Origin: a candidate division KSB1 bacterium
GTDB taxonomy: Bacteria; Zhuqueibacterota; Zhuqueibacteria; Thermofontimicrobiales; Thermofontimicrobiaceae
DNA length: 64,000 bases
Reading direction: 5' to 3'
Assembly: GCA_034506395.1 (NCBI GenBank)
Contig: JAPDPQ010000003.1
Span: 1 to 64,000, forward strand
A model generated the notes under the pieces. The model did not search any database. It was not told the origin of the DNA and saw only the letters and a program-made list of their open reading frames with translations. Each line of letters starts with the position of its first letter. Position 1 is the first letter of the stretch. Shown piece after piece: positions 42,950 to 59,336 of this stretch. Position numbers and translations under genes: made by a program.

Positions 42950-44623
42950 TTAGCGGATAGTTCCCAAATAATGGGTGGTCAACTGGCGCTTTCGGACTTC
43001 TGGATTGGAATAATCTGGCAATAGCATTGGTCCAACCCGATCCTTAATACCAAGTCTCTCGACTTCTTTATTATATTTTTTAACATGCTCCAGCGACAAC
43101 TTCCCGTTTCCCTGATAACCCTTAATGTATTCCGCAGCATTCATTCCAGCAATGCGTCCAAAAACAGTTACATCCAGCAGTGAGTTGCCCATCAGTCGAT
43201 TTTCTCCATGAACGCCGCCTAACACTTCACCTGCCACATAAAGCCCAGGAACACAGGTTTCACATTTGTTGTTCGCCTCCAGACCGCCATTTTGATAATG
43301 GAGCGTTGGGTAGATCAACATGGGCTCTTTGGAGATATCGATCCCATATCGCCGAAATAGAATATGCTTGCCAGGAAATTCCCGACGCACCGTCCCTTCG
43401 CCATGAAGTTCATCAATCATCGGCGAGTCGAGCCAGACACCGAATTTGCCAGTGGGCGTTGGCACCCCATTTCCTCGCTCTGGCGAGCATTCTCTGATGA
43501 TGGCTGCTGCTTCCACATCGCGCGGTTCGCGCTCATACACGAATTGCTGACCATGAATGTTGACCAAGTTTGCTCCGGCTCCTCTCACCTTTTCTGTGAT
43601 CAGCAGCCCCTCCGCTTGCTCTGGAAATACTGCTCCCGTGGGATGGTACTGAACTGTATGCAAGAAACATACAGGCACACCAGCGCGATATCCCATTACC
43701 AACCCATCGCCTGTGGCACCGTAATGATTCGTAGTCATAAATTTTTGAATATGCAACCTGCCCGAGCCACCCGTTGCAAGAATCACGGCCTTCGCCTTTA
43801 CCACAAAGTATTCTTCAGTCTCCAGATTATAAAGCACTGCACCAGCCGCTCTGCCTTGATCGTCCAGCACGATTTCAACCGCAGGCGAGAATTCGATGAC
43901 CTTGATGTCATCGGGATGATTGCGCACCTCGTCCCGAAGTGTGCGCATGATTTCGGCACCGGTGATATCTCCAGCATAGTGCATCCGCTTGCGCGATGTG
44001 CCGCCACCGTGCATTGACTTCAATCGGCCATCGGGGAATTTGCTGAAAATCATGCCCAGCTTCTCCAGCCAAGCCAAAACCTTCGGCGCTTCAGTCACCA
44101 GGGTGTAAACCAACTCTGGATCATTCACAAAATGACCGCCACCCATGACATCCAAATAATGATAATAGGGCGAGTCTTTCCACGTTTTGCTGGCGCCCTG
44201 AATCCCGCCTTCGGCCATCATGGTATTGGCATCGCCGTTGCGCAACTTGGTCGCCAAAATCACCTTTGCCCCATGCTCCCGGGCTAATAACGCCGCCGAA
44301 TTCCCAGCGCCGCCGCCGCCGATGATCAGCACATCGGTCTCCATAGCAATTTCGTCAAGATTGATCTTATCCGGGTCAACACGGCTCTTCGTCTCCAGAA
44401 TGTCTACATATTCATTGGCGATGCTATATCCTTTGCTTGGACCAACTCGGATAGGGCGGCGTGTCCCCTCGATAAAATCAGGGTGATATTTCCGCAGGAT
44501 TTCCTGGCGCTGATCCACTGGAATCGCAGGAAACTCTTCCCCGCGTTTTTTTCTCGCCACGCGCTCAGGACGGGTCTTCTCAACGATTTTGATCAGATTT
44601 TTTAGCTCCGGTGTGTATGGCAT
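42950..44623 (-). CDS. Fumarate reductase/succinate dehydrogenase-type flavoprotein subunit
   Basis: A 557-residue FAD protein. An N-terminal extension of about 90 residues precedes the dinucleotide fold (DVLIIGGGGAGNSAALLA, near 97-114). HGGGTSRKR, QYHPTGAVFP, 'LITEKVRGAGANLVN' and GGVHGENRLMGNSLLD match fumarate-reductase active-site segments. The C-terminus is shorter than in FrdA/SdhA. It should reduce a fumarate-like substrate, or oxidise one, in the cytoplasm, using electrons from the Fe-S subunit upstream. It is the last gene of the redox cluster; a membrane anchor subunit C is not seen. Confidence 0.88.
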   Translation of the reverse strand: MPYTPELKNLIKIVEKTRPERVARKKRGEEFPAIPVDQRQEILRKYHPDFIEGTRRPIRVGPSKGYSIANEYVDILETKSRVDPDKINLDEIAMETDVLIIGGGGAGNSAALLAREHGAKVILATKLRNGDANTMMAEGGIQGASKTWKDSPYYHYLDVMGGGHFVNDPELVYTLVTEAPKVLAWLEKLGMIFSKFPDGRLKSMHGGGTSRKRMHYAGDITGAEIMRTLRDEVRNHPDDIKVIEFSPAVEIVLDDQGRAAGAVLYNLETEEYFVVKAKAVILATGGSGRLHIQKFMTTNHYGATGDGLVMGYRAGVPVCFLHTVQYHPTGAVFPEQAEGLLITEKVRGAGANLVNIHGQQFVYEREPRDVEAAAIIRECSPERGNGVPTPTGKFGVWLDSPMIDELHGEGTVRREFPGKHILFRRYGIDISKEPMLIYPTLHYQNGGLEANNKCETCVPGLYVAGEVLGGVHGENRLMGNSLLDVTVFGRIAGMNAAEYIKGYQGNGKLSLEHVKKYNKEVERLGIKDRVGPMLLPDYSNPEVRKRQLTTHYLGTIR

Positions 44624-44671
44624 GTTAATACCTCATATATTAGATTTGTTTATCAAGTTCTATAGTCACCA

Positions 44672-44866
44672 AAATTCCAAATCACAAAATCCAGGTTCCA
44701 AATAGATCTCACACTTGAATATTCAATTTCCGAAACCAATAGAACCAGATCAACTCAAAAGCTATCTGAATAAAAAAAAGAAGCCAATGCTATTCACCGA
44801 CATTTGGAATTTGACATTTTAGAAATTGCAATTTATTTGGAATTTGTAATTTGGTGCTTGGAATTT
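44672..44866. repeat. Palindromic intergenic repeat (CCAAAT type)
   Basis: AATTCCAAATCACAAAATCC (near 44673) and its approximate inverse, ATTTGGAATTTGTAATTTGG (from 44835), form 32-nt arms about 130 nt apart. Similar 'TTGGAATTTGGAATT' strings occur between genes in many uncultured bacterial genomes. They lie between the flavoprotein and Fe-S genes. Confidence 0.55.
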
Positions 44867-44880
44867 TTCCCTGCAACAAA

Positions 44881-45627
44881 TCAAAGAAATGCTTTTTCCG
44901 CAGGCTCCCACATTTCATCCGCATTATCAGGCTCTGTCTCCCGCTCCTTATAGAGTTTCATTAGCGTAGCTTTGTCCGCCTTCATTAGTTCCTGAAGCAT
45001 CGTTTCGTATTTGCCCGATTCTACCTCCTGGACTCGCTGGGCTAAATGCTCTGCCTTGGGCAAAATATATCGACCATACAAGCGCCGCGCTAAAATGGCA
45101 ATATTATATTGCACTTCTTCCGCAGGGCAGCGCGCTGCACAGAGTCCACACATCACACAATCGAACGATAATTCAGCCGCCTTCTTGATATCCCCAGCCA
45201 TGGCCGCCGCAACATAATCCATCACCTTGATGTCCATGGGGCAGCTCTTGGTGCAGTTATTACACCCCATGCATTTGAAAATTTCGGGATACAATCGGGC
45301 CACCGTTTCGCCAGTCGGCTGCAACTGCTCCAGATCATAAACTGCTTTATTGGCAGGGAAAAACGGAATCTGCGTGATGTACATGTACGGCTCGACCACT
45401 GTCTGGCAGGCCAAACCATAGTGCAGTTGGTAATCGTTGGGGAAACGATAGATCGTCGCACAAGCGCCACAGATGCCACCTCGACAGCCGCAGCCACGGA
45501 TCAATTGATAACCCGCATACTCCATCGCTTTCTGAATCGTCAGCGATGGGGGGACGTCATACCGCTTACCCATAATAAAAATCGGAATCAAATTTTTGGT
45601 TTCTGTATTTTGTTCGGTATTGCTCAT
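44881..45627 (-). CDS. Fumarate-reductase-like Fe-S subunit (2Fe-2S plus two 4Fe-4S)
   Basis: A 248-residue electron carrier with the FrdB/SdhB layout. The N-terminal plant-type ferredoxin has Cys46, Cys48, Cys53, Cys56 (GCGCRGGICGAC) and Cys74 (LACQT). Two C-terminal clusters follow: KCMGCNNCTKSCPMD and DCVMCGLCAARCPAEE. In SdhB one site is a 3Fe-4S; here both sets have four cysteines. GGAGG precedes the ATG. It passes electrons to the flavoprotein downstream and receives them from the tail-anchored Fe-S protein or cytochrome upstream. The gene order suits a coupled complex. Confidence 0.9.
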   Translation of the reverse strand: MSNTEQNTETKNLIPIFIMGKRYDVPPSLTIQKAMEYAGYQLIRGCGCRGGICGACATIYRFPNDYQLHYGLACQTVVEPYMYITQIPFFPANKAVYDLEQLQPTGETVARLYPEIFKCMGCNNCTKSCPMDIKVMDYVAAAMAGDIKKAAELSFDCVMCGLCAARCPAEEVQYNIAILARRLYGRYILPKAEHLAQRVQEVESGKYETMLQELMKADKATLMKLYKERETEPDNADEMWEPAEKAFL

Positions 45628-45667
45628 CTAAAAGCCTCCTGGATTTTTTCCAATGGATTGAAACAAC

Positions 45668-45736
45668 CCAACGGCTGATAAGACTGCAATTGATATTTCA
45701 ATTCTTCATATCCGTTGTCGTCATATCAGCCGTTGG
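45668..45736. repeat. Palindromic intergenic repeat (CAACGGCTGATA type)
   Basis: CCAACGGCTGATA (45668-45680) and TATCAGCCGTTGG (45724-45736) are perfect 13-bp inverted copies 43 nt apart, between two redox genes. Confidence 0.6.
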
Positions 45737-45743
45737 ATAAAAA

Positions 45744-46226
45744 TTACCATGTTATAAAAACCCCAATCACAATTCCGATAATCAACGCCACAAAAACCAT
45801 AAAATAGTTGTCCAACCACTTCAACGCTTTCTTCTGCGGAATCACTTCTACCACCCTTTCCTCCACCACAAAATCTTTGATCCCTGTATCCACCTGAGGA
45901 CAGGCCATGACGCAGGCGTAACATTGCTCGCAGTCCTCAGCCACCAGCACTTCCAGTGCAAACGAAGTCCGCTGCACGGTTCTTGCCCGTCGATCGGGCT
46001 CTCGCCTGAGCACGGGACAGGAGTCGATGCAATTGCCACAAGCAATACATGCCCGATCACCATCGATTTGAACATTCGGTGGCAAATAAAGCCGATGATA
46101 CGGCTCGATCCCTCTCGAAAGCAACCGACAACGAGCTACTGGCGGTTCTTTAATATCCAGAACAGTATTGAGCACTCGGATGGTCTCGGGACTTAACTTT
46201 TCTTCTTTTGCGGTTATATAAGCCAC
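45744..46226 (-). CDS. Tail-anchored 2x[4Fe-4S] ferredoxin-like protein
   Basis: A 160-residue protein from a GTG start (AAGGAG upstream). Two cluster motifs with four cysteines each, CIACGNCIDSCP and CEQCYACVMACP, lie in the middle; the C-terminal 25 residues are one transmembrane helix ending FITW, so the ferredoxin is held at the inner membrane. It is unlike HdrC but occupies a similar role. Placed between the heptahaem cytochrome and the FrdB-like gene, it may pass electrons from the quinone/cytochrome part to the cytoplasmic flavoprotein pair. Confidence 0.8.
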   Translation of the reverse strand: MAYITAKEEKLSPETIRVLNTVLDIKEPPVARCRLLSRGIEPYHRLYLPPNVQIDGDRACIACGNCIDSCPVLRREPDRRARTVQRTSFALEVLVAEDCEQCYACVMACPQVDTGIKDFVVEERVVEVIPQKKALKWLDNYFMVFVALIIGIVIGVFITW

Positions 46227-46262
46227 GGCTTGCTCCTTAAAACATTAATTACACAAAACAAA

Positions 46263-46299
46263 ATCATCCAGATGATAAACCGCTAATTCCGCGAATTAG
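46263..46299. repeat. Pair of short palindromes between redox genes
   Basis: ATCATC-CA-GATGAT (46263-46276) and CTAATTC-CGC-GAATTAG (46283-46299) lie in the 178-nt gap before the tail-anchored Fe-S gene. The second kind, 'CTAATTCCGCGAATTAG', has the look of a dispersed repeat. Confidence 0.35.
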
Positions 46300-46404
46300 G
46301 CCAATTCTGCCAATTTGATACCAATAAAATTCGCGCAATTTTGGTTGATTCGTGACATTTGCTGTCAAAAATTTTGATCCTTAGGCAAAGCAATAATTGC
46401 TCGA

Positions 46405-47310
46405 TCATCTAACCACCAAATTCCCAATATACGGATGACACTTCACACAATTCGTCTGATCCGACAAATCCTCACACTCGGCCCGAAAGATCACAAACTT
46501 CCCATGAATTTTGCCATGATGGCACTTCTGGCAGACCTCCTCCGTTGGCATAGGCAGCGGCTTGCCTGGGTGGTTCAGTGGCGTGACGTTCTCATGGCAG
46601 CCCGAGCATGCAATCGGATTTCGGGCAGCGAAATTCACCGTTTTATCTACCAGCTTCTTGCCTGACGCATCGACCTTCTCCCGCAGATGGCATTGCCCGC
46701 AATTGCCCAACTGGATCTTTTCGATCAAGGCCAATTGCTCTTTTTCATCTTCGTTCAACGAAGATTTGGCCTTCAGTTCATGATACAACTTTTGATCTTC
46801 AGGTCGAAAATATTCGAATCGGTAATGCAGCCGCTTGTTCAGCTTCAAGCCGATTTCGGCCAATTTTTCGCTGGCCAAAAGATACGGTGCTCGTTCCATC
46901 ACATTGAGCCGATCGGGATGGCATTTCAGGCATTGATCGCTGGTGTAAAACGATTTGGGGCTGGTCGGCTCGGTGAATTTCAGATTGGCAAACCGCTGGG
47001 ATAACACTGCGGCCTGATTGACCCCACGCCAAGCCCAGTGCTCTACTGATTTATCAGGATGGCAACTCATACAGCCTGTGGCATCCCCTTCGGCAATGCC
47101 TTTATGCGGCTCGGTATTGAGATCGATACTGACGTAGGGTCCTTTTACATAATGGCACGTCAGGCATGTTGATGGAATCTGATTGTAATAAATCATCCCA
47201 ATGAATCCCAACACCGCTAGAATCGGCGCCGCTATCAGTACGATTTTGATGTGATGCTTGATGACGAAATCTTTGATTTTTTCAAATGTTGGTGTCTTGA
47301 AAATTTTCAT
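46405..47310 (-). CDS. Membrane-anchored heptahaem cytochrome c (NapC/NrfH-like)
   Basis: A 301-residue protein with one N-terminal transmembrane helix (about 18-42) and seven CxxCH haem sites: CLTCH, CMSCH, CLKCH, CGQCH, CSGCH, CQKCH, CVKCH. NapC/NrfH have four or five haems and QrcA six, so seven is unusual. The N-terminal 'AAPILAVLGFIGMIYYNQIP' anchor and the first haem close to the membrane fit quinol oxidation or quinone reduction on the periplasmic side. It is next to the molybdopterin oxidoreductase gene, which suggests direct electron exchange. Confidence 0.9.
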   Translation of the reverse strand: MKIFKTPTFEKIKDFVIKHHIKIVLIAAPILAVLGFIGMIYYNQIPSTCLTCHYVKGPYVSIDLNTEPHKGIAEGDATGCMSCHPDKSVEHWAWRGVNQAAVLSQRFANLKFTEPTSPKSFYTSDQCLKCHPDRLNVMERAPYLLASEKLAEIGLKLNKRLHYRFEYFRPEDQKLYHELKAKSSLNEDEKEQLALIEKIQLGNCGQCHLREKVDASGKKLVDKTVNFAARNPIACSGCHENVTPLNHPGKPLPMPTEEVCQKCHHGKIHGKFVIFRAECEDLSDQTNCVKCHPYIGNLVVR

Positions 47311-47336
47311 TTGAAATTTAAAACTCCTGATCTTTC

Positions 47337-47429
47337 TGTCATTCCGAACGAAGCGCAGCGCAGTGAGGAATCTCTATATTTTGCAAAGTTCATTTATCCA
47401 GCAGATTCCTCACTTCGTTCGGGATGACA
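47337..47429. repeat. Palindromic intergenic repeat (CATTCCGAACGAAG type)
   Basis: TGTCATTCCGAACGAAG (47337-47353) and the opposite arm AGATTCCTCACTTCGTTCGG ending GATGACA (47403-47429) form an imperfect long palindrome, 93 nt, between the cytochrome and the molybdoprotein. A second, related copy lies at 51278-51407. Confidence 0.7.
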
Positions 47430-47437
47430 ATTTTACA

Positions 47438-49654
47438 TTATGCCTTTCTCACCTTCACCTTCGTATCCATCCAAGCTTGTCCCTTGCCCATAGGGTCGGT
47501 AGCCGCTGCAATGACCCAATTGGGATGAACTCCAAATTTGCCTTTCTTCGGCCACCAGATAAACTTGGTGTCAGGATCATCGCTATCAAATTTTTCGGCT
47601 CGGGCAATCCTGCCAAATTCCCAATGCCCACAGCCATTTGCGATAGCGATGATTTCAGGATGCACTCCTTCGGTCACATGCGCTTTAACTTTCAACTCCC
47701 CTGCCGACGATTCTAAAATAATATCATCCCCTGGTTTGATCTTTAGCGCTCGAGCCGTCTTCGAATTGATCAACGCCGCATTGGCATGATGGATCTCCGC
47801 CAGCCATTTGGCATTGGCCAGATCAGACCGCATCACATTGACATTGAATGGGATTAAAATCAATTCATCCTTGGCTAGATGGATATGCTCCTGGATCGGC
47901 TGATAGCTCGGCAAGGCAGTCAAACCATTGCGCCGCTGGGCGATCTCGAATTTCTTTGATGGGGTATTGAAGCCCCGAGTTCGATAAATCTGATATTCCG
48001 CTTTCTGATTTTCCTGATACCAGATACCATTTTTCTTCAGCCGATCATAGGCTAATCCTGGAACTTGTGTGACAATTGCTTTGATGTAGTCTTCAACATT
48101 GGAATGGTTCACCATCGCTGCAAAGCCACCGCCCATCCGCTGCGCCAGCGACAAGCATAATTCGTACAGTGGCTTCGATTCTCCCTGCGGCTGGATCACT
48201 GGCTGCCCCAATGTCACAAACGGGATCATTTCGAACGACGGCGCCGAATCCAGGGACCAGCTCTCGAGAAACGTGGTGGCGGGCAAAACCAGATCCGCTA
48301 GCGCCGCCGTCTCGCTCATTACCGTATCCATCACCACGGTGAACGGCAACAGCGATTCATCTTTCAGCACCGATTGGGTAAAATGGCAATCGGGATGCTC
48401 GTAAGCGGGATTGGTTTTATAAGCAAAATAGAGATCGACCTTTTGCTTCTTGCTTTGAATCGATTTGAGAAACTCAATTGGATTTTGCTCGTCAGCCAAT
48501 TTCTGATCTGGATCGAAATCTTTGAGCTGATATTTTCTGGGCAGACAATAGCCTCCCTGCCCATCGATGTTGCCCACGATGGCATTGAGCAGCATGATGC
48601 AGCGCTCGTTTTCGACGCCGTTAACATGATCGACCACACCGCCGCCAGAGAACGCCACACCAGGCTGCGTAGTGGCAAATTCCACAGCAATCCTTTCGAT
48701 GGTCTCGGCAGGAACCTGGGTGATCTCTGCTGCTTTTTCTACTGTAAATTGAGCCAGGTAGCTCTTCAAATCAGCCACCGAAACATTGGTCCATTGGCTG
48801 ATAAATTGGGCGTTGTACAAGTTCTTCTGCATAATCACATTGGCCATGGCCAGGGCGAGCATAGCATCGGTGCCAGGCTTGATGGGGATCCACTCGTCAC
48901 TTCGCCCCGCAGTATTGGACATCCGAGGATCAACAGTCACCAATCGTGCATGACGGTCGATTCGGCCATCGATGAGCCGCTGATTGAAATTGATGAAGAA
49001 CGGATGGGACTCGAACGGATTACTGCCAAAGGCGAGGAAATAGCGGCAATTGGCAGCGTCGATCACTTCGCAGCTCTCACCCCAGGTTTTCTGCTGGGCC
49101 ATGGTCTTATTGGGATGCTCATAACCATCATCGGTTAGAATGGTCACTGGTTTAAAATTATCGAGAAATCTTCGGGTCAAACCTGAAATTTGAAAGCGAT
49201 CGGCATGAAAGACGAACGCCTCTCCCCTATTCTGGTTCTGAACAGCTTTGAGCCTCATCGTTAGTTCATTCAGCGCCTCGTCCCAACTGATCTTTTGCCA
49301 TTTGCCATCACCCCGCTTTCCTGTTCGCTTCATTGGATATAAAATCCGCTCGGGATCATAGACCAGGTTCATGCCTGCAATCCCACGGGCGCAAATGCGA
49401 CCCCGATTATTGAGATGCTTCGGATTCCCCTGAACGGCTGCCAATCGCTCATAATTGAGAAATCCCAGCACTCCGCAGCGGGCAGGACACAGGTCACAAA
49501 TCGTGGCCACACTCTTTCGAAAATCATTGGAAAAAATCGAGACATTTCTGCCTCGGATTCCAAAAATTGGCACCAAACCGCTAAACTGAATCGCCGTTGC
49601 CCCCAATGCACCAAGCTTCAAAAAGTCACGACGATTAATTTTATTCATATTCAA
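47438..49654 (-). CDS. Tat-exported molybdopterin oxidoreductase (CISM catalytic-type subunit)
   Basis: A 738-residue protein with a Tat motif NRRDFLK (about 7-13) and a [4Fe-4S] set Cys53, Cys56, Cys60, Cys88 (ICDLCPARC ... GRICARG). Molybdopterin domain segments follow: YFLAFGSNPFESHPF, VTVDPRMSNTAGRSDEW, 'SGGGVVDHVNGVENERC' and a C-terminal dinucleotide-binding domain with 'VNVMRSDLANAKWLAEIHHA' and 'KPGDDIILESSAGELKVKA'. It resembles the A subunits of polysulfide/thiosulfate reductases and the Mo-like subunit of Qrc and alternative complex III. Its partners (NrfD- and NrfC-like) lie immediately upstream. Whether it binds molybdenum or is a cofactor-poor electron relay is open. Confidence 0.88.
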   Translation of the reverse strand: MNMNKINRRDFLKLGALGATAIQFSGLVPIFGIRGRNVSIFSNDFRKSVATICDLCPARCGVLGFLNYERLAAVQGNPKHLNNRGRICARGIAGMNLVYDPERILYPMKRTGKRGDGKWQKISWDEALNELTMRLKAVQNQNRGEAFVFHADRFQISGLTRRFLDNFKPVTILTDDGYEHPNKTMAQQKTWGESCEVIDAANCRYFLAFGSNPFESHPFFINFNQRLIDGRIDRHARLVTVDPRMSNTAGRSDEWIPIKPGTDAMLALAMANVIMQKNLYNAQFISQWTNVSVADLKSYLAQFTVEKAAEITQVPAETIERIAVEFATTQPGVAFSGGGVVDHVNGVENERCIMLLNAIVGNIDGQGGYCLPRKYQLKDFDPDQKLADEQNPIEFLKSIQSKKQKVDLYFAYKTNPAYEHPDCHFTQSVLKDESLLPFTVVMDTVMSETAALADLVLPATTFLESWSLDSAPSFEMIPFVTLGQPVIQPQGESKPLYELCLSLAQRMGGGFAAMVNHSNVEDYIKAIVTQVPGLAYDRLKKNGIWYQENQKAEYQIYRTRGFNTPSKKFEIAQRRNGLTALPSYQPIQEHIHLAKDELILIPFNVNVMRSDLANAKWLAEIHHANAALINSKTARALKIKPGDDIILESSAGELKVKAHVTEGVHPEIIAIANGCGHWEFGRIARAEKFDSDDPDTKFIWWPKKGKFGVHPNWVIAAATDPMGKGQAWMDTKVKVRKA

Positions 49655-49669
49655 ATTCCTTTGTATTGA

Positions 49670-49706
49670 GGCGTGACCGTCACCTCGCAGGTGACGGTCA
49701 CGCCTT
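49670..49706. repeat. Perfect 17-bp hairpin repeat (GGCGTGACCGTCACC type)
   Basis: AGGCGTGACCGTCACCT (49670-49686), a CGC loop, then the exact reverse complement (49690-49706). It fills most of the 66-nt gap between the NrfD-type and molybdoprotein genes. On the plus strand four T follow, but both neighbouring genes are on the minus strand. Confidence 0.7.
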
Positions 49707-49720
49707 TTGCATTCATTGTA

Positions 49721-51204: not shown

Positions 51205-51277
51205 AACAAGCCTCCAGACAAATGGTTGGCAACGCAACCATTGATTCAGAAGTATGTGTTAAACCTGATTAGATTAC

Positions 51278-51706: not shown

Positions 51707-51712
51707 TACAGC

Positions 51713-52060: not shown

Positions 52061-52063
52061 GGA

Positions 52064-52393
52064 TCAATCCAGCAGTTGTCGAACAATTTGAGTCAGTCGA
52101 TCCCGAATAATAGGATCTAAAATTTCCAGAGAGCGATTATTTTGCTGCGGGCGAATGTTAATCAAGGATTCATAAGTCACCTGCCTCGTCTCTGGGTTCC
52201 AATCGGCACCCCAAATATCCGCTTGGTAACTCCCATCATCCAATAGCGCTGATTCGCAATCCGCATGAAGCACTCCCCCACCCGCTAAAATACCCCGACG
52301 AATATCCACGGCCAGCTTAATATAGCTGCCTAAAGCCTCCAACATCTCATTTAGCTCTTGTGCAGAGGCGTGAGAACGGATTATGTGAATCAT
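52064..52393 (-). CDS. DUF5674 family protein
   Basis: The ATG at 52393 gives the 109-residue family length (the longer frame runs into the neighbour gene). It begins MIHIIRSHASAQELNEML and has VDIRRGILAGGGVLHADCE, DIWGADWNPETRQVTYESLI and NIRPQQNNRS, a strongly conserved pattern of this family. No function is assigned. It forms a pair with the 115-residue protein downstream, and both interrupt the redox cluster. Confidence 0.82.
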   Translation of the reverse strand: MIHIIRSHASAQELNEMLEALGSYIKLAVDIRRGILAGGGVLHADCESALLDDGSYQADIWGADWNPETRQVTYESLINIRPQQNNRSLEILDPIIRDRLTQIVRQLLD

Positions 52394-52409
52394 CAGTACT
52401 CTATAATTA

Positions 52410-53369
52410 TTATGCCAAATGCTTTGCTCTATTCTTTCGAACATACGAAATCGCCGCCGCCGCAATGCTGGGTCCCGAATCTCCCACGGGACATTTGCCC
52501 GCACAGCGGGAGCAGGCCACACAATATTTCGCCAGCCGCTTCACCTTTTCATAGTCCCCTAATCGAGTCGCCAGAATCATGGTCATGGGATACGGCTCGC
52601 CGTCCACAATTTTCACAGGACAGACGCCGACACAGGTCTGACAGTTGTAGCAATTCAACGCCTGGCCTGTGCCGCTCACCAGGGTCGGCTGCAACGTATA
52701 GTCGAATACCAAAATGATACAAAATAAAATCGCCAGGGCATTCCACGTCGTCATGCCGAAACGAAATTGGGAAAATTTGTGAATAATCTGGGTGACTGTA
52801 TTGAAATGCGGACGATCGGGAATTCCGTTTAAAACCGCATTGGTCACCGCTTCTCGAAATCCTTCGGTCGTTTCTATGGAGCCGTGGATCGTGGGTGGAA
52901 CCAATGCGACGTCCAATCTATTCGTAGCAATGATCTGCTCGGGCAGTCCCTTCAGCGCATTGATCATCTCCTGATGCTGAAGAATTTTGATATCCGCTAT
53001 CTTCGCATCCTCGATCTTGACCGCCACTTTGATCGGGCCTCTCAGTCCCTGGCCCACACCCTCGTAAACGCCATTATCCACCAATTCCAGTTTGAATGGA
53101 TAATTATCTCTGATATACCTCGCCACCTTGCCGTATTGCACCAGGTAGTAGATGCCAGTGACTAGCAGCACCAAAATGGCGGGGATGATAATCATGAAAT
53201 AGGATTTTTTATGAACGATATAAGTTTTGATGGCTGAAATGAAAATCAATAACCCTAACAATGCGAACAAGATCATTCGGCCCGAGACAAATGCCAGGGC
53301 TGTGATGATCATCAAAATGGCTAACCGCCAGGGTCGCTCGAATATTTTTTCAACTGCCAGTTTTAGCAA
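52410..53369 (-). CDS. NosR/RnfG-like membrane protein: FMN-binding plus 2x[4Fe-4S]
   Basis: A 319-residue protein. Three N-terminal hydrophobic segments (about 12-80) are followed by an FMN-binding domain (about 85-185, 'GVYEGVGQGLRGPIKVAVKI', GSIETTEGF), another membrane helix (about 208-225) and two C-terminal cluster motifs, CYNCQTCVGVCP and CVACSRCAGKCP. The domain order resembles the membrane redox proteins NosR/RnfG, with flavin on one side of the membrane and Fe-S on the other. The flavin-attachment Thr would be in 'SIETTEGF'. It probably moves electrons between the membrane and the periplasm. Confidence 0.82.
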   Translation of the reverse strand: MLKLAVEKIFERPWRLAILMIITALAFVSGRMILFALLGLLIFISAIKTYIVHKKSYFMIIIPAILVLLVTGIYYLVQYGKVARYIRDNYPFKLELVDNGVYEGVGQGLRGPIKVAVKIEDAKIADIKILQHQEMINALKGLPEQIIATNRLDVALVPPTIHGSIETTEGFREAVTNAVLNGIPDRPHFNTVTQIIHKFSQFRFGMTTWNALAILFCIILVFDYTLQPTLVSGTGQALNCYNCQTCVGVCPVKIVDGEPYPMTMILATRLGDYEKVKRLAKYCVACSRCAGKCPVGDSGPSIAAAAISYVRKNRAKHLA

Positions 53370-53439
53370 CTTCTTCCTCTTATTTGGGTAATTCGATCAA
53401 AAGGAAATTGGGTAATCAGATTGGTTTTTAATTATTTCA

Positions 53440-53841
53440 TCAATTCCAAAGTACTTTAAGTCCAAATTTCTGGTATTCACTCATTTCTTGGTCTTTTGAG
53501 ATAAGAGCCATATTTTTTGAGATAGCCTGCCATATTATCAATCGATCAAATGGATCCTTATGTTTGGCCTTAGGCAGCTTATAAAAACTTGCAGCTTCTT
53601 TTTCAGTAACCTCTAAGGTTTCAATTCCAACCTCTTCAACTCTATCAGGGATTTCATCTGGGGTTATATTTTCAAGTTCGATCTTTCCTAAACTATATTT
53701 CAATGATATCTCAAAATAGCTTATTAGGCTAACAAAAATCCTATTCTCAGGATTACTTATCGTTTCCTTTGCTTTTTCAGATAATTTTTCATCTTCAAAT
53801 AGGACCCAAAGCAAAGTGTGAGTATCAAGTAGATAATTCAT
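53440..53841 (-). CDS. PIN-domain (VapC-type) toxin
   Basis: A 133-residue PIN ribonuclease-like protein: MNYLLDTHTLLW at the N-terminus with the first Asp, the middle Glu in SYFEISLKYSLGK, and DPFDRLIIWQA plus a later SKDQEM holding further acidic residues. Its ATG overlaps the upstream antitoxin gene by 4 nt. This is a classical VapBC-type arrangement. Confidence 0.9.
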   Translation of the reverse strand: MNYLLDTHTLLWVLFEDEKLSEKAKETISNPENRIFVSLISYFEISLKYSLGKIELENITPDEIPDRVEEVGIETLEVTEKEAASFYKLPKAKHKDPFDRLIIWQAISKNMALISKDQEMSEYQKFGLKVLWN

Positions 53842-54074
53842 GCCGTAAGTAATTCCTCATCAGTCATTTTGAAATCATCTTTGATCTTATAGCTTGCTCT
53901 GCCTTTTAAGATGCCTAAAGGTCTTCTTTCTTTTTTATATTTTCTGAAGGGAATGATCACTGCTTCAGTCTCTAGATCTTTGTCACTCTGGATGAAAATT
54001 TCTTCGCCTTTTTTAACCAATTCTAAAAGCTCAAATATATTTTTTTTCACTTCTTTTCTAGTTAATGCCTTCAT
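53838..54074 (-). CDS. Phd/YefM-like or DUF2281-like antitoxin
   Basis: A 78-residue protein with an N-terminal DNA-binding-type segment (LTRKEVKKNIFELLELVKKG) and a charged C-terminus ('KDDFKMTDEELL') that typically wraps the toxin. AAAGGCGG lies before the ATG. It overlaps the toxin gene by 4 nt and follows a 67-residue hypothetical gene after 6 nt. Confidence 0.75.
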   Translation of the reverse strand: MKALTRKEVKKNIFELLELVKKGEEIFIQSDKDLETEAVIIPFRKYKKERRPLGILKGRASYKIKDDFKMTDEELLTA

Positions 54075-54080
54075 TACAGA

Positions 54081-54284
54081 TCACCGCCTTTCAAATTCAC
54101 ATTCCGCACCTTTGTTGATTTTGTTTTCTTCTTGAATAAAATTTTTGAATTTTGCAAGATGCTTCGCTTTTTGAATTGCCATCCCCAGCTTGTACAATTG
54201 TGCCAATTCTCTCAGCCGACGGTCGATAGCTTCGGGGGACATGTCAAATTTATTGCTTATTTTTTCACTCTGGTTCTTTATCAT
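54081..54284 (-). CDS. Small helical hypothetical protein upstream of the antitoxin
   Basis: A 67-residue frame from ATG 54284 with the helix 'SPEAIDRRLRELAQLYKLGM' and a lysine-rich tail. The spacing to the antitoxin (6 nt) and a possible promoter just upstream suggest a real gene. It is not recognised and no clear ribosome site is present. Confidence 0.45.
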   Translation of the reverse strand: MIKNQSEKISNKFDMSPEAIDRRLRELAQLYKLGMAIQKAKHLAKFKNFIQEENKINKGAECEFERR

Positions 54285-54303
54285 GATCAATAATTGAATC
54301 TAT

Positions 54304-54332
54304 ATTATCTCACCATAATATTTTTTCTTCAA
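54304..54332 (-). promoter_or_regulatory. Possible promoter of the small-protein/VapBC-like operon
   Basis: On the minus strand TTGAAG (54332-54327), 17 nt, GATAAT (54309-54304), starting near 54297, just before the ATG at 54284. The -35 box overlaps the end of the nucleotidyltransferase gene. Confidence 0.4.
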
Positions 54333-54637
54333 GCGACCTTGATTCCCGTAGTAATGATTTCTTTAACAAAAGGATCATCCTCGGTAAAATCCTCGCTACG
54401 AAATGGATGCGGCTCAATCATTCGGTTAATATTTTTTGTCAAGCTCAAAATCCTTTCAATATCAACCAGAGTCGAGCCCTTGAAACTATCAGATACAATT
54501 GCCACATCAATATCGCTATATTCTTTATTGGTGCCCTTGACATAAGAACCAAACAAGTACACCGATTTAATACTAATTTCGTTTTTCAATTGGGCAATAA
54601 AATCTTGAATTGCATTTATAATTTTTTCATCAGCCAT
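54329..54637 (-). CDS. MNT-type nucleotidyltransferase antitoxin
   Basis: A 102-residue minimal nucleotidyltransferase. The motif GS-x10-DID (GSYVKGTNKEYSDID) is complete, with AIVSD following, as in MntA antitoxins that AMPylate a HEPN toxin. It overlaps the HEPN gene by 22 nt. The HEPN partner is interrupted by a stop codon, so this antitoxin may now have no functional toxin. Confidence 0.88.
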   Translation of the reverse strand: MADEKIINAIQDFIAQLKNEISIKSVYLFGSYVKGTNKEYSDIDVAIVSDSFKGSTLVDIERILSLTKNINRMIEPHPFRSEDFTEDDPFVKEIITTGIKVA

Positions 54638-55005
54638 TGCTGAAATTCCTCTACCTTCCTAAAATTTTTTTGGGTAAAACTTTCATCGCACATCTGATAG
54701 ATTCTGAATTTGTAATCGGGATAACGAATCCCCAGATTAAAGCTATTGACAAATTGTAGGAATTTTAGTTGTTCATCATTTAAATCAAGATTCGCCTGTT
54801 GAGCCAAATAAACCAGATTATGAGTCATTGGCGGATTATTTTCGATATTGTATCTAATCCAAAGCGCCTTTAATAATTTTTCCAGCGAAAGATGACACAA
54901 ATACAAACAATAATCAAAATGCTTGGCATTAAAAAGTGATCGGGCAACATCCAAATCGTGCTTCGAGCTTTCAACTCAATAATTGATAAAATCCAGCTTA
55001 TTCAT
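54616..55005 (-). pseudogene. HEPN-domain protein with in-frame TGA at codon 10
   Basis: From the ATG at 55005 the frame reads MNKLDFINY, then TGA (54978-54976), then VESSKHDLDVARSLFNAKHF and on to the stop at 54616, with no frame change. HEPN relatives have Trp at this spot (YW.xSSxxDL), so a single TGG to TGA change explains it. The open part from TTG 54954 (112 residues) lacks a ribosome site. Body motifs: CHLSLEKLLKALW, PPMTHNLVYLAQ, and RYPDYKFRIY (no RX4-6H). Either a nonsense mutation or an assembly error. Confidence 0.8.
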
Positions 55006-55034
55006 TTTAACAATTTTGCTTTTTGCTAACTCAA

Positions 55035-55601
55035 TTAGGGCATTTCCAAAAACTCCGCCACTTCATCGATAAACGCCTGATTGATCAGCCCTTTTTCAAA
55101 CGCTTTTTTGACCATGCTTTTGGGAATCTTACCTTCCCGAAGGGCTTCCATCGTTTGCAATTGCATCGTGCCGAAAATCTGGGGCAGATTCAAATATTGC
55201 ACGCAGAAGCTCTGGCAATTGCCGCAGCGGATGCACTTCAATCCGCCGTTGCGGAGAAAGCGATTGTAATCTGCCACTCTCGCTGAAACCACCAGCTCGG
55301 CTTGAAACGCAATGCCCACAGGACATTTATCCTGCGTGCCATAGCAGGCTCGACACTCGTAGCAATAGATCGTCTGCGGATTTTTATTGACCACTGCCTT
55401 GCCCACATCGATCGCCAGCATCGAGGCAATACCCAGCATGGCCGCCCGATTGAGATTTTTCGTCAATGCTCGATCGTTCACATTGGTGAAAAACTGAAAC
55501 CGCCGAATGCCAGGCATCACGTACGGCTGGTCTTCTTCAAAGCGGGCACCAATGGGTTTGTCTTCTTGTTCGTCTTTTTTTGTGTCTTTATCTTCGGTCA
55601 T
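55035..55601 (-). CDS. Dicluster ferredoxin-like protein
   Basis: A 188-residue protein. The charged N-terminus (about 1-22) is followed by a short hydrophobic segment (AAMLGIASMLAIDVGKAVV, about 53-71), then two cysteine sets: CYECRACYGTQDKCP, with an unusual spacing, and CIRCGNCQSFCVQYLN, lacking the typical CP. The second set would have three to four ligands. It lies before the toxin island and after the two-helix micro-protein on the same strand; the FMN-binding Fe-S gene beyond the island was probably its direct neighbour once. Confidence 0.8.
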   Translation of the reverse strand: MTEDKDTKKDEQEDKPIGARFEEDQPYVMPGIRRFQFFTNVNDRALTKNLNRAAMLGIASMLAIDVGKAVVNKNPQTIYCYECRACYGTQDKCPVGIAFQAELVVSARVADYNRFLRNGGLKCIRCGNCQSFCVQYLNLPQIFGTMQLQTMEALREGKIPKSMVKKAFEKGLINQAFIDEVAEFLEMP

Positions 55602-55689
55602 TTTTTTCTTAGTTGAGTGGTTAAGTGAGTTGAGTAGTTGAGTCAGGATCGACCAAATTTGCTTTCACATTTTATCGAAAAAATTCAAA

Positions 55690-55842
55690 CTAACGAGGCA
55701 ACATCAACGCCATGAGCAGCCCAGCGATCAATCCACCGACTGCACCCTGAATTAATTCCTTCGTCGATTTCATGTCCATAGCGTAAGCGATAATCACCCC
55801 AGAGACCGCACCTGCGAAAAGAAATGAGACAAATGTTAACAA
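55690..55842 (-). CDS. Two-helix membrane micro-protein
   Basis: A 50-residue frame from TTG 55842, with GAGG 8 nt upstream, to TAG 55690. It reads as two hydrophobic segments, LTFVSFLFAGAVSGVIIAYA and 'IQGAVGGLIAGLLMALMLP', joined by DMKSTKEL, with glycine-zipper spacing. The C-terminal 45 residues of the neighbouring SCGPSP transporter have the same plan (ISGGIAGAVLALAVYEIK, GFIGGVIAALLIGLMVP), so it looks like a free copy of that element. Function unknown. Confidence 0.65.
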   Translation of the reverse strand: MLTFVSFLFAGAVSGVIIAYAMDMKSTKELIQGAVGGLIAGLLMALMLPR

Positions 55843-55864
55843 TGATGCACCCTCACATTTTATT

Positions 55865-55935
55865 GGAGTATTGGAGTGATGGAGTATTGACTTTGGATTA
55901 CCCAGAGAATCATTACTCCATTACTCCAGAACTCC
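55865..55935. repeat. Palindromic intergenic repeat (GGAGTATTGGAGTGATGG type)
   Basis: GGAGTATTGGAGTGATGGAG (55865-55884) and TACTCCATTACTCCAGAACT (from 55914) form 22-nt imperfect inverted arms in the gap between the micro-protein and the transporter. Confidence 0.6.
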
Positions 55936-55981
55936 ATTTTCATTCAACTCGATGCTATTTGTAGTTCAAAATACCAAAAGA

Positions 55982-57670
55982 CTAAGCTGCTCGCCTCACC
56001 GCCGCCAACGTCTTCGGCACCATCAATCCAATTAGCAGCGCTGCGATCACGCCGCCGATGAAGCCCTGGGCGATCTGCAAGATTTTTATTTCATAAACGG
56101 CCAGCGCCAACACTGCCCCAGCGATCCCACCGCTAATCAGAAAATAGATCAACTGCAGATTCCAATTTTTTGCGACGTCTTTGCCAATGGAACGGCTGAC
56201 GATCCCCATCATCCCGCCCGAAATGCCGATGATGACGAGCGTGAATAGCGCCAATACCAACAGGTTCTGAGAGAATTCGGGATTCTCGGGTGAAAAGACC
56301 GTAAAGTTCATGAACTTCATGTAAATCGCTGCAATGGGCGCCATGATCGCCATGGAAGCGAAGGTATAGGCGCCTTTGATAAAGCCAGTTTCGGCTCGCA
56401 TCTGGCCTTCGCCCATGGTGCCGCCGCCGCCCAATGGCGAGGGCCCGCAGGATGTCGTGGCATTGATCATATAGGCTGCCATGACGATCGCCAATTGCGG
56501 CCAGGTGATGAGATTGAACTTGGCTGGGCCAAACAAATAAAGCACAGGCACTAGCGCTGCCGTCAAAATTCGGGAGCAGGATAGCGGCAGAATCGTCTGC
56601 ATCTGAACGAAGATGGCCAGCATTCCTGCCACACCGAGAATCTGGATCGCTGACAGGCTTTTCAAAATCACGCCCAGCGCATCGAATCCGCCTGTAGCCG
56701 CCAGCACGCCCGCTGCGAGAAATCCCGACGCCATCGCCGTGACGGGCAGCAAGATGATCCCACCCATCAAATCCTGAATAGAAGCTCGGCAAAACAGGAT
56801 AATTAAAATTCCGCCCGCCACCAGCACGGTCTGGACGGGCATTTTGCCGAACGGCTGGAAAATGGCGATGAGCAACGAGGCGACAAAGATGATCAGCGAT
56901 AGGTAGCCTCGAAACGGCGCTTTGATTTTGGTGATTTTCTTTTCTTCCTCAAAACCAATGGTGGTGGGTTTATCTCGGAGCGTGACATCGTTGGGATATA
57001 ATTTCTGGGAAATAATTTTCAAAAACAGGGCGGTGATGGCGGTTCCGATCATCAGCGAAAATGCTTGTGGCGATCTCAAAATGCCGTCGCTGGCCGTCGG
57101 GAAAAAGGCGCCGAGGAACCCCTCCCCTATCTGTCCCACACCGCCAATCGGGGATGGCCCGCAGGAGCCCATGGCATTGCGGGTGAAAGCGCCGATTAGA
57201 ACTACCAATTGGGTTTTGGTCAGCAAGCCCATGCCGCCTTCCCAGCCAAAGGAAAATAGCAACGGCAGCAGTGCAGCAGCGATAATTCTCCCGCAAGGCA
57301 GCGATGCGATGACAGGCAAATTGATGATAATGACCAGCGTTCCCGCCAGCCCTATGGGGCTTTTTTGCAATTTGGCGATGATGACTTTCAGCGCATCAAA
57401 GCCTTTGGTGGCTTCCAATGCACCTGCCAGAAACAACCCGCCCAGCAGCGCCGTGATCGGATGCAGGATGATCCCGCCGATCATTTCATTGGGCAGCAAA
57501 ATAGCGCTGGTAAAACCATCGCTGGCAATTCGGAACAGAAATCCAATCAGCAAATTGACCAGACTGACCAGCACCAGCACCGTCTGCACAGGAAGATTGA
57601 TCTTCCTGAACAGCGTGAGAACCATTGTCACAATAAAGATCGCAAGGGTGATGTAGCCGAGTAGTTCCAA
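55982..57670 (-). CDS. Duplicated 'SCGPSP' membrane transporter of unknown substrate
   Basis: A 562-residue integral membrane protein (TTG start, GAGG upstream) with about 14-16 helices. It is an internal duplication: halves share 'GGIILHPITALLGGLFLAGA'/'GGIILLPVTAMASGFLAAGV', GFDALKVII/GFDALGVIL, LPCGRIIAAALLPLLF/LPLSCSRILTAALVPVLY and the hallmark SCGPSPIGGVGQIGEG/SCGPSPLGGGGTMGEG. The shape recalls the ion transporter (IT) superfamily (dicarboxylate/anion transporters), but I cannot name a family. A last 45-residue glycine-zipper element resembles the adjoining micro-protein. In a fumarate-reductase-like cluster, a dicarboxylate or other anion substrate is plausible. Confidence 0.72.
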   Translation of the reverse strand: MELLGYITLAIFIVTMVLTLFRKINLPVQTVLVLVSLVNLLIGFLFRIASDGFTSAILLPNEMIGGIILHPITALLGGLFLAGALEATKGFDALKVIIAKLQKSPIGLAGTLVIIINLPVIASLPCGRIIAAALLPLLFSFGWEGGMGLLTKTQLVVLIGAFTRNAMGSCGPSPIGGVGQIGEGFLGAFFPTASDGILRSPQAFSLMIGTAITALFLKIISQKLYPNDVTLRDKPTTIGFEEEKKITKIKAPFRGYLSLIIFVASLLIAIFQPFGKMPVQTVLVAGGILIILFCRASIQDLMGGIILLPVTAMASGFLAAGVLAATGGFDALGVILKSLSAIQILGVAGMLAIFVQMQTILPLSCSRILTAALVPVLYLFGPAKFNLITWPQLAIVMAAYMINATTSCGPSPLGGGGTMGEGQMRAETGFIKGAYTFASMAIMAPIAAIYMKFMNFTVFSPENPEFSQNLLVLALFTLVIIGISGGMMGIVSRSIGKDVAKNWNLQLIYFLISGGIAGAVLALAVYEIKILQIAQGFIGGVIAALLIGLMVPKTLAAVRRAA

Positions 57671-57711
57671 CTTTGCCTCTTTTGGACTTTTTGATAAGGA
57701 AATAGATTCTC

Positions 57712-57820
57712 CATCCCCCCTTACCCTCTACCCGCAACTTGTGGCGGGTACTTCCTTCGGTCGCTTCAAAGGGGGGAATGGCGAAGTCCCCCTTTGAAGG
57801 GGGATTTAGGGGGATGTCAA
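57712..57820. repeat. CCCCCTTTGAAGGGGG-type dispersed repeat
   Basis: TTCAAAGGGGG (57765-57775) and CCCCCTTTGAA (57788-57798) form an 11-bp palindrome, with flanking CCCCCCTTA and TTTAGGGGGATGT further out (57712-57820). Such elements are dispersed between genes in many bacterial genomes. Confidence 0.65.
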
Positions 57821-57840
57821 TTTATCTTTTTCCCCAAATT

Positions 57841-58161
57841 TTACCTATGACAATTACTGTTCTTCTTCACTCTGAACGGCAAATTCACAATGAACCGCTC
57901 ATCTTTTTTTGACAGCAATACTTCATCTCCCACCGCCAAATTACCCATACACATCGTACATTGCGGCGCCTCTGCTTCCACAATCTGCCCATTTTTCAAT
58001 TGAACCTTCAGTCGGGATAGGATCAATTCTTCGATCCCCAGCTCTGAAGGACACAACTCCACGATGACGCCTTTGATGAAATATTTGGCCCGATAAATTT
58101 CAGCGAAAGCGAAAAACGCCAGCAGGCTGATAAAGGTGTAAAATGTTAACGAGTCAGTCAT
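57841..58161 (-). CDS. Small membrane protein with CxxC motif
   Basis: A 106-residue protein with one N-terminal transmembrane helix (about 5-22) and a small beta-rich domain containing 'QLKNGQIVEAEAPQCTMCMG' (CxxC near 68-71) and 'GDEVLLSKKDERFIVNLPF'. An additional Cys lies at about 37 and near the C-terminus. It starts 3 nt after the NHL gene stop. Unrecognised; the CxxC pair could bind metal or act in thiol redox. Confidence 0.65.
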   Translation of the reverse strand: MTDSLTFYTFISLLAFFAFAEIYRAKYFIKGVIVELCPSELGIEELILSRLKVQLKNGQIVEAEAPQCTMCMGNLAVGDEVLLSKKDERFIVNLPFRVKKNSNCHR

Positions 58162-58164
58162 GGA

Positions 58165-59136
58165 TCAAGCCGTCCATTCGAATTGAATTACCTGCTTCAG
58201 TTCTGCATCCACAACATAGCATTTATTGTCGCTGGTGATCGCAATCGAAGTAGGTCGCTTCAGCCCTTCCTTGATCATGCCGAGAAATTGGCCCTGAGGA
58301 TCGAATTTTTGAATGCGGCCATTGATCGAGTCGCATACATAAACATTGCCAGTACGATCCAGCGCAATCCCTTCGGGCAAATTCAATTGGCCTGGGCCAC
58401 TGCCGTTTTCGCCGAAGCGAAATAGGAATTGACCGTTAGGGTCAAGTACTTTAATTTCGCCATGCTTGCTATCTACCACATAAATCCTGCCATCGGCGGA
58501 TACGGCCACTCCCGTCGGCAGACGGAAATGATAGGCCAGCGTCCCCTGGGGCAGATCTTTCGGGTCATCGCCCAGATCGCCAAAGCTGCCGATCAATTGA
58601 TGGGAATTTTTATCGAACACGGAGAGCCGATGATTGCGGGTGTTGCAGGCATAGATTTTGTCGCCGACAAAAATACCCTTTGGCGTGTAGAATGCATCGG
58701 GATAGCCACCGACTTCACCAATTGAGCCGATGAATTTTCCCTCTGGCGAAAAGATAACAATGCGGCCGTTGTTGGAATCGACCACGTAGATATCGCCATT
58801 GGCATCCACGGCAATTCCCTGGGGATAATTCAGTCGATCTCCGCTGCTACCTGGCCTGCCGATAGTCTGGACCAATTTTCCTACCGCATCGAACACTTTG
58901 ATGCAATAGCTGCCAGCATCCGTGACATAAATAAGGCCACTCGAATCAATTGCAAGGCCGTAGGGATCAATAAATCCATCTATTCGATGACTCGTCTGAA
59001 GAGAATTCGATGATTGGCCATGAAGCAACCGAGGAAAACTAAAATGAATAGCTGACGCAGCTCCTAAAGCAAGGCTATTTTTCAAAAATGAGCGTCGTGA
59101 GATACTTTTCGAAAGAATCGAATCGTTTCGCTTCAT
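58165..59136 (-). CDS. Tat-exported NHL-repeat beta-propeller
   Basis: A 323-residue protein with a Tat signal (SRRSFLKNSLALGAASA, about 13-29). Six or so NHL repeats follow: IDPYGLAIDSSGLIYVTDAG, LNYPQGIAVDANGDIYVVDS, YTPKGIFVGDKIYACNT, LPTGVAVSADGRIYVVDS, 'NLPEGIALDRTGNVYVCDS' and 'KRPTSIAITSDNKCYVVDA'. It is the first gene after the strong promoter of the redox cluster and should act in the periplasm, perhaps as a scaffold or binding protein for the complex. Confidence 0.88.
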   Translation of the reverse strand: MKRNDSILSKSISRRSFLKNSLALGAASAIHFSFPRLLHGQSSNSLQTSHRIDGFIDPYGLAIDSSGLIYVTDAGSYCIKVFDAVGKLVQTIGRPGSSGDRLNYPQGIAVDANGDIYVVDSNNGRIVIFSPEGKFIGSIGEVGGYPDAFYTPKGIFVGDKIYACNTRNHRLSVFDKNSHQLIGSFGDLGDDPKDLPQGTLAYHFRLPTGVAVSADGRIYVVDSKHGEIKVLDPNGQFLFRFGENGSGPGQLNLPEGIALDRTGNVYVCDSINGRIQKFDPQGQFLGMIKEGLKRPTSIAITSDNKCYVVDAELKQVIQFEWTA

Positions 59137-59307
59137 AAAATCATGTCATGCGAGTTTATTTTTTGGCAGGAAAATAAAAAAGACTATAAATTATCTTCAT
59201 TCAGGAACGATCTATAGCCTTCAGAATTTTGAATTCGGAAAAATTTTCATCATATGATCTATGGCAAAACATGAGATTCGATGTCCACCTTCAAAAATTT
59301 AGGTTTT

Positions 59308-59336
59308 AATATATACCATGATTTCCAAAAAGTCAA
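59308..59336 (-). promoter_or_regulatory. Strong promoter of the redox gene cluster
   Basis: On the minus strand TTGACT (59336-59331), 17 nt, TATATT (59313-59308). Transcription would start near 59301, leaving a leader of about 165 nt before the NHL gene. It is the only good promoter I find upstream of the cluster. Confidence 0.65.

Follow-up and report, generated by a model that had tools for sequence, protein, structure and literature searches.

A gene cluster of a candidate division KSB1 bacterium that may join a fumarate-reductase-type FrdAB head to a heptahaem cytochrome and an NrfC-NrfD module

How might an FrdAB pair without a membrane subunit C be supplied with electrons? The question arises from a 64,000-nt stretch of DNA, hereafter the window, of a candidate division KSB1 bacterium (GCA_034506395.1, contig JAPDPQ010000003.1, positions 1–64,000, forward strand; draft genome G000, 5.56 Mb). 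A set of 13 genes spans 42950–59136 on its minus strand: the ten named by an initial annotation, all present and, as it had stated, on one strand, and three added here. In the order of transcription, from 59136 down to 42950, they encode an NHL-repeat protein, a 106-amino-acid membrane protein (O106), a transporter, a 50-amino-acid hairpin protein, a dicluster ferredoxin (dFd), a membrane protein with flavin mononucleotide (FMN) and Fe-S domains, NrfC, NrfD, a molybdopterin-family subunit (Mop), a heptahaem cytochrome (cyt7), a tail-anchored Fe-S protein (TAFeS), FrdB and FrdA. We propose, with about an even chance of being right, that the cluster encodes one membrane-spanning chain that would carry menaquinol or periplasmic electrons inward to fumarate or a close dicarboxylate. 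One point in its favour is that the closest published arrangements, FrdABEF of Syntrophobacter fumaroxidans and the soluble fumarate reductase of Pelotomaculum thermopropionicum, reduce fumarate. The novelty lies in the partners of a soluble-type FrdAB head lacking HdrB: an HdrC-like ferredoxin with a tail anchor, a cytochrome with seven haems and an NrfC-NrfD-Mop trio without the Mo-ligand Cys. This combination was not found by a full-text search of the literature, subscription journals being largely outside its reach.

The FrdA-like flavoprotein (42950–44623; PF00890, 257 bits) has TfrA as its nearest model, at 352 of 718 bits (model 5–424 of 546 against query 93–521). It thus has some 93 additional residues at its N-terminus and lacks the FrdA C-terminal domain. 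The FrdB-like subunit (44881–45627) has a 2Fe-2S domain and two [4Fe-4S] motifs (Pfam Fer2 and Fer4); both CxxCxxCxxxCP motifs occur in 10 of the 11 rows aligned, L134 matching one only. Pfam scans of the cluster gave no membrane anchor subunit, C or C/D, of the kind that quinol:fumarate reductases of types A–D have. A search of the entire draft genome for the SdhC/FrdC-type anchor PF01127 gave nothing at E ≤ 0.1, although it does give a match in 11 of 14 control genomes. Thus the earlier claim that the pair lacks a membrane subunit C holds, and this search gave no normal C subunit elsewhere in the genome.

The pair is nevertheless not an orphan. An alignment scan with FrdA returned at least 577 related stretches, which speaks against an FrdAB of a novel, isolated kind. 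We read the neighbourhoods of the best 80 of these, named loci found with two patterns (one containing Asn133), and labelled each according to whether its flanks (10 kb at most) contained a match to any Hdr gene or any gene of the membrane set, the membrane type taking precedence. Among these 80, 61 have matches to HdrA, HdrB or MvhD, six are of the membrane type (G003 and G004, described below, are included again, and L052 in part only) and 13 are neither; FrhB-like matches occur in 18. The order HdrC-HdrB-FrdB-FrdA is seen in the Syntrophobacteraceae loci L078 and L081. Within the class of the window, four genomes (G008, G010, G012, G017) carry FrdAB beside MvhD and HdrA/B/C-type genes and, in some cases, FrhB-type genes, the naming of eight proteins in this set being checked with NCBIfam and Pfam; their FrdAs are 79–82% identical. 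Such a neighbourhood is of the putative TfrAB kind known from reductive tricarboxylic acid cycle gene clusters (PMC6315080) and, by description, is similar to FrdABEF of S. fumaroxidans and to the FrhB-linked enzyme of Pelotomaculum. A further FrdAB pair lies on a 5.9-kb contig of G022. The genome of the window itself has an HdrC-HdrB-HdrA cluster without FrdAB, on contig C14. On these alignments FrdAB belongs to the widespread known Tfr or “type E” fumarate-reductase family, found mostly beside HdrB/HdrC. The initial annotation was therefore right about a pair without subunit C, but the pair is a member of a known and mostly Hdr-linked family.

What replaces the Hdr partners in the window? 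Beside FrdB lies TAFeS (45744–46226), a 2x[4Fe-4S] protein which aligns with the HdrC proteins of the named loci (hhalign probability 78.9, E 1.6e-5; HdrC model E 9e-7) and which, apart from its tail anchor, has the features of the HdrC-like subunit (FrdF) of the type E family, as judged from these profiles. The C-terminal helix is present in 11/11 TAFeS and in 0/49 HdrC-like proteins from named FrdA loci. By Pfam the cluster contains no CCG (HdrB-like) domain, and no HdrB match was found in the six named membrane-type loci. More generally, none of these six has an Hdr match in its flanks; this is not a product of the labelling, while the absence of the transporter from Hdr-type loci is so in part by definition of the labels. 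Both the helix and the missing Hdr genes count in favour of the proposed chain. The two kinds of neighbourhood are linked by the Anaerolinea locus L096, an Hdr locus with a soluble TAFeS-like protein beside FrdB, which is the sole overlap between them.

The combination of genes is real. The 12 larger genes occur in identical order on one contig in three KSB1-related genomes (G003, G004 and G009), with intergenic gaps of -4 to 224 nt in G003 (L021) and 0 to 166 nt in G009, as in one operon; some gaps in G004 reach 1.5 kb. The Desulfomonile phylum has the same genes as one run at six loci (L048, L049 and L089 of Desulfomonile, L133, L137 and L138), in a rearranged order, NrfC-NrfD-Mop standing behind FrdA. 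In these six loci the identity to the window is 67–72% for the transporter, 70–77% for FrdA, 58–66% for TAFeS and 23–26% for cyt7. The gene order is thus conserved far beyond chance, and the set is conserved across two distant phyla, which counts in favour of the proposed chain; the outcome that would have spoken against the initial annotation, i.e. no shared order in related genomes, was not seen. A third phylum (Lernaellota) may carry the system, because Ca. Alcyoniella too has a listed TAFeS with a tail anchor. The Desulfomonile-type version has in addition a dihaem membrane cytochrome of 177–180 amino acids before NrfC, specific to this version and present in 7/7 loci examined (e.g. L048 11694–12233); it is of 174 amino acids in L052, where FrdA is accompanied only by the trio.

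Transporter and TAFeS are also inherited together. Among 395 genomes of the Desulfomonile phylum (that of G083), each was found in eight, with seven genomes shared and nine having either; these searches scored the best three (transporter) or best nine (TAFeS) candidates per genome, TAFeS being counted at E up to 1e-25. Among the 82 genomes searched of the phylum of the window, the transporter was found in six and TAFeS in five, with five shared and six having either. The co-occurrence, which favours the proposed chain, has Fisher p values of 2e-13 (395) and 2e-7 (82), uncorrected for kinship. The single-gene exceptions are G273 (transporter alone, on a 4-kb contig), G011 (transporter alone, on a 7-kb contig ending inside the FMN gene) and G324, whose TAFeS is a weak match in a 306-amino-acid frame. 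The nine transporter-bearing genomes examined of the Desulfomonile phylum comprise six in which the set is complete, though with a split Mop in L133, and three cut by contig ends; the six of the phylum of the window comprise four with a complete set and two fragments (G005, G011).

How would electrons reach FrdAB? The transporter would bring fumarate or a close dicarboxylate into the cell. On the other side, periplasmic electrons would pass through the cytochrome, the [4Fe-4S] cluster of Mop and NrfC to meet menaquinone at NrfD. The heptahaem cytochrome cyt7 (46405–47310, N-terminal anchor) keeps seven CxxCH motifs and one helix in 11/11 rows in spite of identities down to 23%, a point in favour of the proposed chain. 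NrfC (50614–51237, PF13247) has 17 Cys, and 16–17 Cys are found in 11/11 rows; its true start is probably near 51207, because the KSB1-type relatives start about 11 residues later. NrfD (49721–50617; PF03916, 149 bits) has a predicted quinone site in the 11-row alignment. Mop (47438–49654, PF00384) has a Tat signal, and its Cys 53, 56, 60 and 88 are invariant in 10/10 rows (L133, with its gene in two pieces, being left out). The Mo-ligand position, which we take to be that of Cys173 of PsrA, falls in an unconserved loop in all ten. A catalytic molybdoenzyme of the PhsA/PsrA kind was rejected on this ground, the PhsA model giving 335.6 of 694 bits, and the subunit is probably without Mo catalysis. 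The molybdopterin subunit named in the initial annotation is thus a member of its family but probably not a catalytic molybdoenzyme. The cut-offs of the Qrc models were not reached either (QrcB 236 of 440 bits, QrcC 129 of 400 bits).

From the membrane, the FMN/Fe-S protein (52410–53369) and dFd would bridge to TAFeS. Standing in place of HdrC/HdrB, TAFeS would hand electrons to FrdB and then to the flavin adenine dinucleotide (FAD) of FrdA, so that a FrdAB head served elsewhere by soluble donors (NADH, H2, ferredoxin via Hdr) would be re-wired to the quinone/periplasmic pool. The FMN/Fe-S protein keeps the FMN-domain fold at about 98–186 and ends in a 2x[4Fe-4S] domain; for the trans-membrane step, it is the only candidate predicted to have domains on both sides. 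Covalent flavinylation of the window protein is improbable: its sequence HGSIETTEG has no Thr at the attachment place of the motif, which we take to be [S/T]GAT. Among the 11 rows this Thr is found in L048 and L134 only. The NosR/RnfG-like protein of the initial annotation therefore stands as regards the FMN fold and not as regards the attachment residue. In G004 the part of this gene that encodes the Fe-S end is found a second time, incomplete, between the FMN and NrfC genes (L020 10482–10811). dFd (55035–55601) is a dicluster [4Fe-4S] protein whose Cys motifs are conserved in the four rows aligned; one hydrophobic segment is found in 11 of 12.

Several observations weigh against a single chain. 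No haem b or other assigned carrier is found between NrfD and TAFeS, and the attachment Thr is missing from the FMN domain of the window and of 9/11 rows. Across the two phyla the trio is less alike than the other genes (NrfC 49–53%, NrfD 36–39%, Mop 25–27%), has another place in the order and is accompanied by the dihaem cytochrome. For these three reasons the trio may be a separate, replaceable module, and the NrfD tree shows a long branch between the trios of the two phyla. In L133 (3922–6639) the Mop match is in two pieces, the gene being possibly broken or misassembled. The genome of L052, counted as membrane type, has no transporter match, and its contig begins just before FrdA. The low confidence of the transporter model, given below, is a further point, as is the result for promoters: promoter-like sites in the window are at chance level (30 against 30.2 expected in shuffles), and so are terminator-like sites. 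The “promoter-led” run of the initial annotation thus finds no backing.

These points bear on another explanation, in which one operon holds two modules with separate electrons: a Qrc-like cytochrome-NrfCD-Mop unit working between periplasm and menaquinone, and an FrdAB which TAFeS ties to the membrane and which is fed by soluble ferredoxin or NADH. The trio and the cytochrome are indeed apart in the Desulfomonile-type order, the FrdAB relatives stand beside Hdr/FrhB genes of soluble supply, and Qrc, in the portion of the source available, serves periplasmic donors and menaquinone without any FrdAB (PMC13059093). Against it, none of the six named membrane-type loci has HdrB or HdrA, every HdrC-like partner in the 11 rows has a tail anchor, and transporter and TAFeS are co-inherited. 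We consider this explanation unlikely.

What would the transporter carry? The protein (55982–57670) belongs to an unnamed family with two repeats, 38% identical, each containing an SCGPSP motif; the internal repeat has an E of 1e-41 and the motif is kept in 15/15 rows. No Pfam family was assigned to the window protein; the best Pfam match, CitMHS (E 4.4), was seen in 2 of 27 members scanned, and the profile has no match up to E 10 among PDB sequences. Its predicted model has an INDY-like fold (mean pLDDT, the per-residue confidence score, 61.8, i.e. low confidence), which would be fitting for a C4-dicarboxylate substrate and to that extent supports the proposed chain. The two-repeat layout and the fold of this low-confidence model resemble those of VcINDY and the divalent anion-Na+ symporters (IT superfamily); the lack of a PDB sequence match, the poor CitMHS score and the SCGPSP motifs set it apart from them. 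“Unclassified”, as it was first called, thus remains true of its Pfam assignment, less so of its modelled fold. Between transporter and dFd, a gene for a 50-amino-acid two-helix membrane protein (55690–55842, TTG start) is found in 12/12 gaps examined, the window included; it is below the 90-amino-acid limit of the open reading frame (ORF) list used for the initial annotation. This protein aligns with the transporter tail (hhalign probability 98.7, E 3.9e-16), and by that comparison is a stand-alone relative of the C-terminal hairpin of the transporter.

The INDY-type structures matched by the model include succinate- and fumarate-bound ones. This would also suit a chain running outward, in which succinate brought in by the transporter is oxidised by FrdAB and its electrons go to menaquinone or, by way of cyt7, to acceptors in the periplasm or outside the cell. 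On general grounds, outward transfer would suit the heptahaem cytochrome and the FMN domain as well. The active site of FrdA speaks rather for reduction. Compared with E. coli SdhA, whose residue roles we take from general knowledge, it has Asn133 at the place of the covalent-FAD His and retains every one of the dicarboxylate-site residues (His and Arg twice each, Thr, Glu). Absence of the covalent-FAD His is typical of one-way fumarate reductases and favours reduction. Asn133 is found in 98/98 FrdA rows (some of them duplicates), partly by selection, the pattern with Asn133 being one of the two that served to find the 80 loci. In addition, the genome has a separate conventional SdhAB with the covalent-FAD motif on contig C20, and the published relatives, in the text available, are induced by fumarate or active with it. 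The outward direction is thus also improbable.

The route could be as proposed and end on a different unsaturated dicarboxylate or anion. FrdA has the motif HYQNGG where E. coli SdhA has HYMMGG, with QN in 98/98 rows; the solved FrdA relatives listed include aspartate oxidase and urocanate reductase; and carriers of sulfate, citrate and arsenite are among the matches of the transporter model. Against this, the substrate-site residues are retained: the two His, the two Arg and the Glu in 98/98 rows and the Thr in 95, Ser replacing it in three. The same QN is moreover found in the Hdr-type relatives whose arrangement matches that of published fumarate reductases. Another substrate appears to us rather improbable.

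Has the FrdA head always belonged to the membrane set? We tested 43 of the 96 FrdA rows in a tree, after dropping L029 and L030, which lie on contigs already represented by G004 and G003, and L027, which has 552 of 556 residues as in L024. The 11 membrane-type rows fall into more than one clade: forcing them together costs 70 log-likelihood units (approximately unbiased (AU) test, p 0.0067) and 0/200 bootstrap trees group them, although the starred branches, taken by themselves, are compatible with a single change. When the doubtful L052 and L133 are removed, the constraint costs 33 units and one clade is still rejected (AU p 0.0127); the four KSB1-type FrdA rows then group together without support (57/77). 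The window-type KSB1 rows stand among the Hdr-type KSB1 rows, apart from those of Desulfomonile. In trees of the transporter, dFd, TAFeS and FrdB, made from membrane-type loci alone, the KSB1 rows form one clade (bootstrap 100, SH-aLRT, a likelihood-ratio branch support, 98–100). Because the FrdA tree rejects a single membrane-type clade, the head has probably moved between settings of the Hdr type and of the membrane type, which is the simplest account of these phylogenies. Taken as a whole, the reading would be that of an undescribed class of membrane-spanning respiratory complex: a cytoplasmic FrdAB head, taken over from soluble Hdr-linked fumarate reductases, would be driven by a complex iron-sulfur molybdoenzyme (CISM) module lacking Mo catalysis together with the heptahaem cytochrome, and would be supplied by a dedicated two-repeat dicarboxylate carrier with its own hairpin subunit. 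The head would be swapped between soluble bifurcating and membrane settings, fumarate reductases thus being pluggable into either kind of electron supply. In this full form we hold it only tentatively, and think it somewhat likelier to fail than to stand.

Which known systems come closest? The type E FrdABEF of S. fumaroxidans, described in the accessible parts of PMC3570798 and PMC8691401, is likewise an FrdAB without membrane subunit C, with [2Fe-2S] and [4Fe-4S] clusters in FrdB and Hdr-like partners, and reduces fumarate. By these descriptions, the cluster of the window differs in lacking the HdrB-like FrdE, in having its HdrC-like subunit tail-anchored and in adding the cytochrome, the NrfCD-Mop trio, the FMN protein and the transporter. 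In P. thermopropionicum, the NADH-linked fumarate reductase SDH2 has FrdAB clustered with an FrhB-like gene; it differs, again by description, in being soluble, no membrane or cytochrome genes being reported in the text available (PMC10308238). TfrAB with flxABCD-hdrABC, in reductive tricarboxylic acid cycle (rTCA) gene clusters of sulfur oxidisers, is proposed as a soluble bifurcating supply in the parts available of PMC6315080 and PMC11636981. It too has TfrA-like FrdAB among Hdr genes, as in our loci L103, L106 and L108 (Gallionella, Gallionellales, Nitrosomonadales), but no membrane module. Finally, the QrcABCD menaquinone reductase shares a multihaem cytochrome, a Mop-family subunit (in the window probably) without catalysis, NrfC and NrfD (PMC13059093 and PMC8076601, as far as their text was available), whereas the window has seven haems and not six, a Mop keeping four Fe-S Cys where that of Qrc bears no redox cofactor, an NrfD of 298 amino acids and a cytoplasmic FrdAB head. 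By term search of the portions available, the word fumarate is absent from a review of NrfD complexes (PMC8076601), and fumarate and succinate from a paper on the phylum (PMC11683472).

Fumarate reductases with Hdr-like partners are regarded as soluble or loosely attached enzymes. If the proposed chain is true, there would be a direct path from quinol or periplasmic electrons to cytoplasmic fumarate, and a new coupling of fumarate respiration to energy conservation. Testable roles would follow for four families without assigned function: the two-repeat transporter, its 50-amino-acid hairpin partner, the 3-Cys membrane protein and the tail-anchored ferredoxin.

The first two genes of the set complete its description. 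The NHL-repeat beta-propeller protein (58165–59136; PF01436, 141 bits) has a Tat signal, with an RR-F N-terminus in 14 full-length members, and stands ahead of O106 and the transporter in each of the 15 loci compared, of which one is truncated at a contig end. O106 (57841–58161), the 3-Cys membrane protein, has no Pfam match over cut-off; it has one N-terminal helix, seen in 15/15, and three Cys (C68, C71 and C104) invariant in the 13-row alignment. In the genome of the window the set is interrupted by genes foreign to it: PIN (53440–53841), MNT/HEPN (54329–54954), DUF5674 (52064–~52480) and an ORF at 51713–52060. PIN and MNT/HEPN (toxin-antitoxin-type) and DUF5674 are insertions; the tight runs of G003 and G009 leave no room for them. 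A 17-bp motif, GATTCCTCACTTCGTTC, is repeated at 47404, 51344 and 51382, inside hairpin-like intergenic repeats. Upstream of the cluster lie two large ORFs on the minus strand, 59971–62277, which has no Pfam match, and 62675–63847. Just past the other end, at 40092–41156 on the plus strand, this bacterial genome has a gene of the deoxyhypusine-synthase family (PF01916, 112.8 bits).

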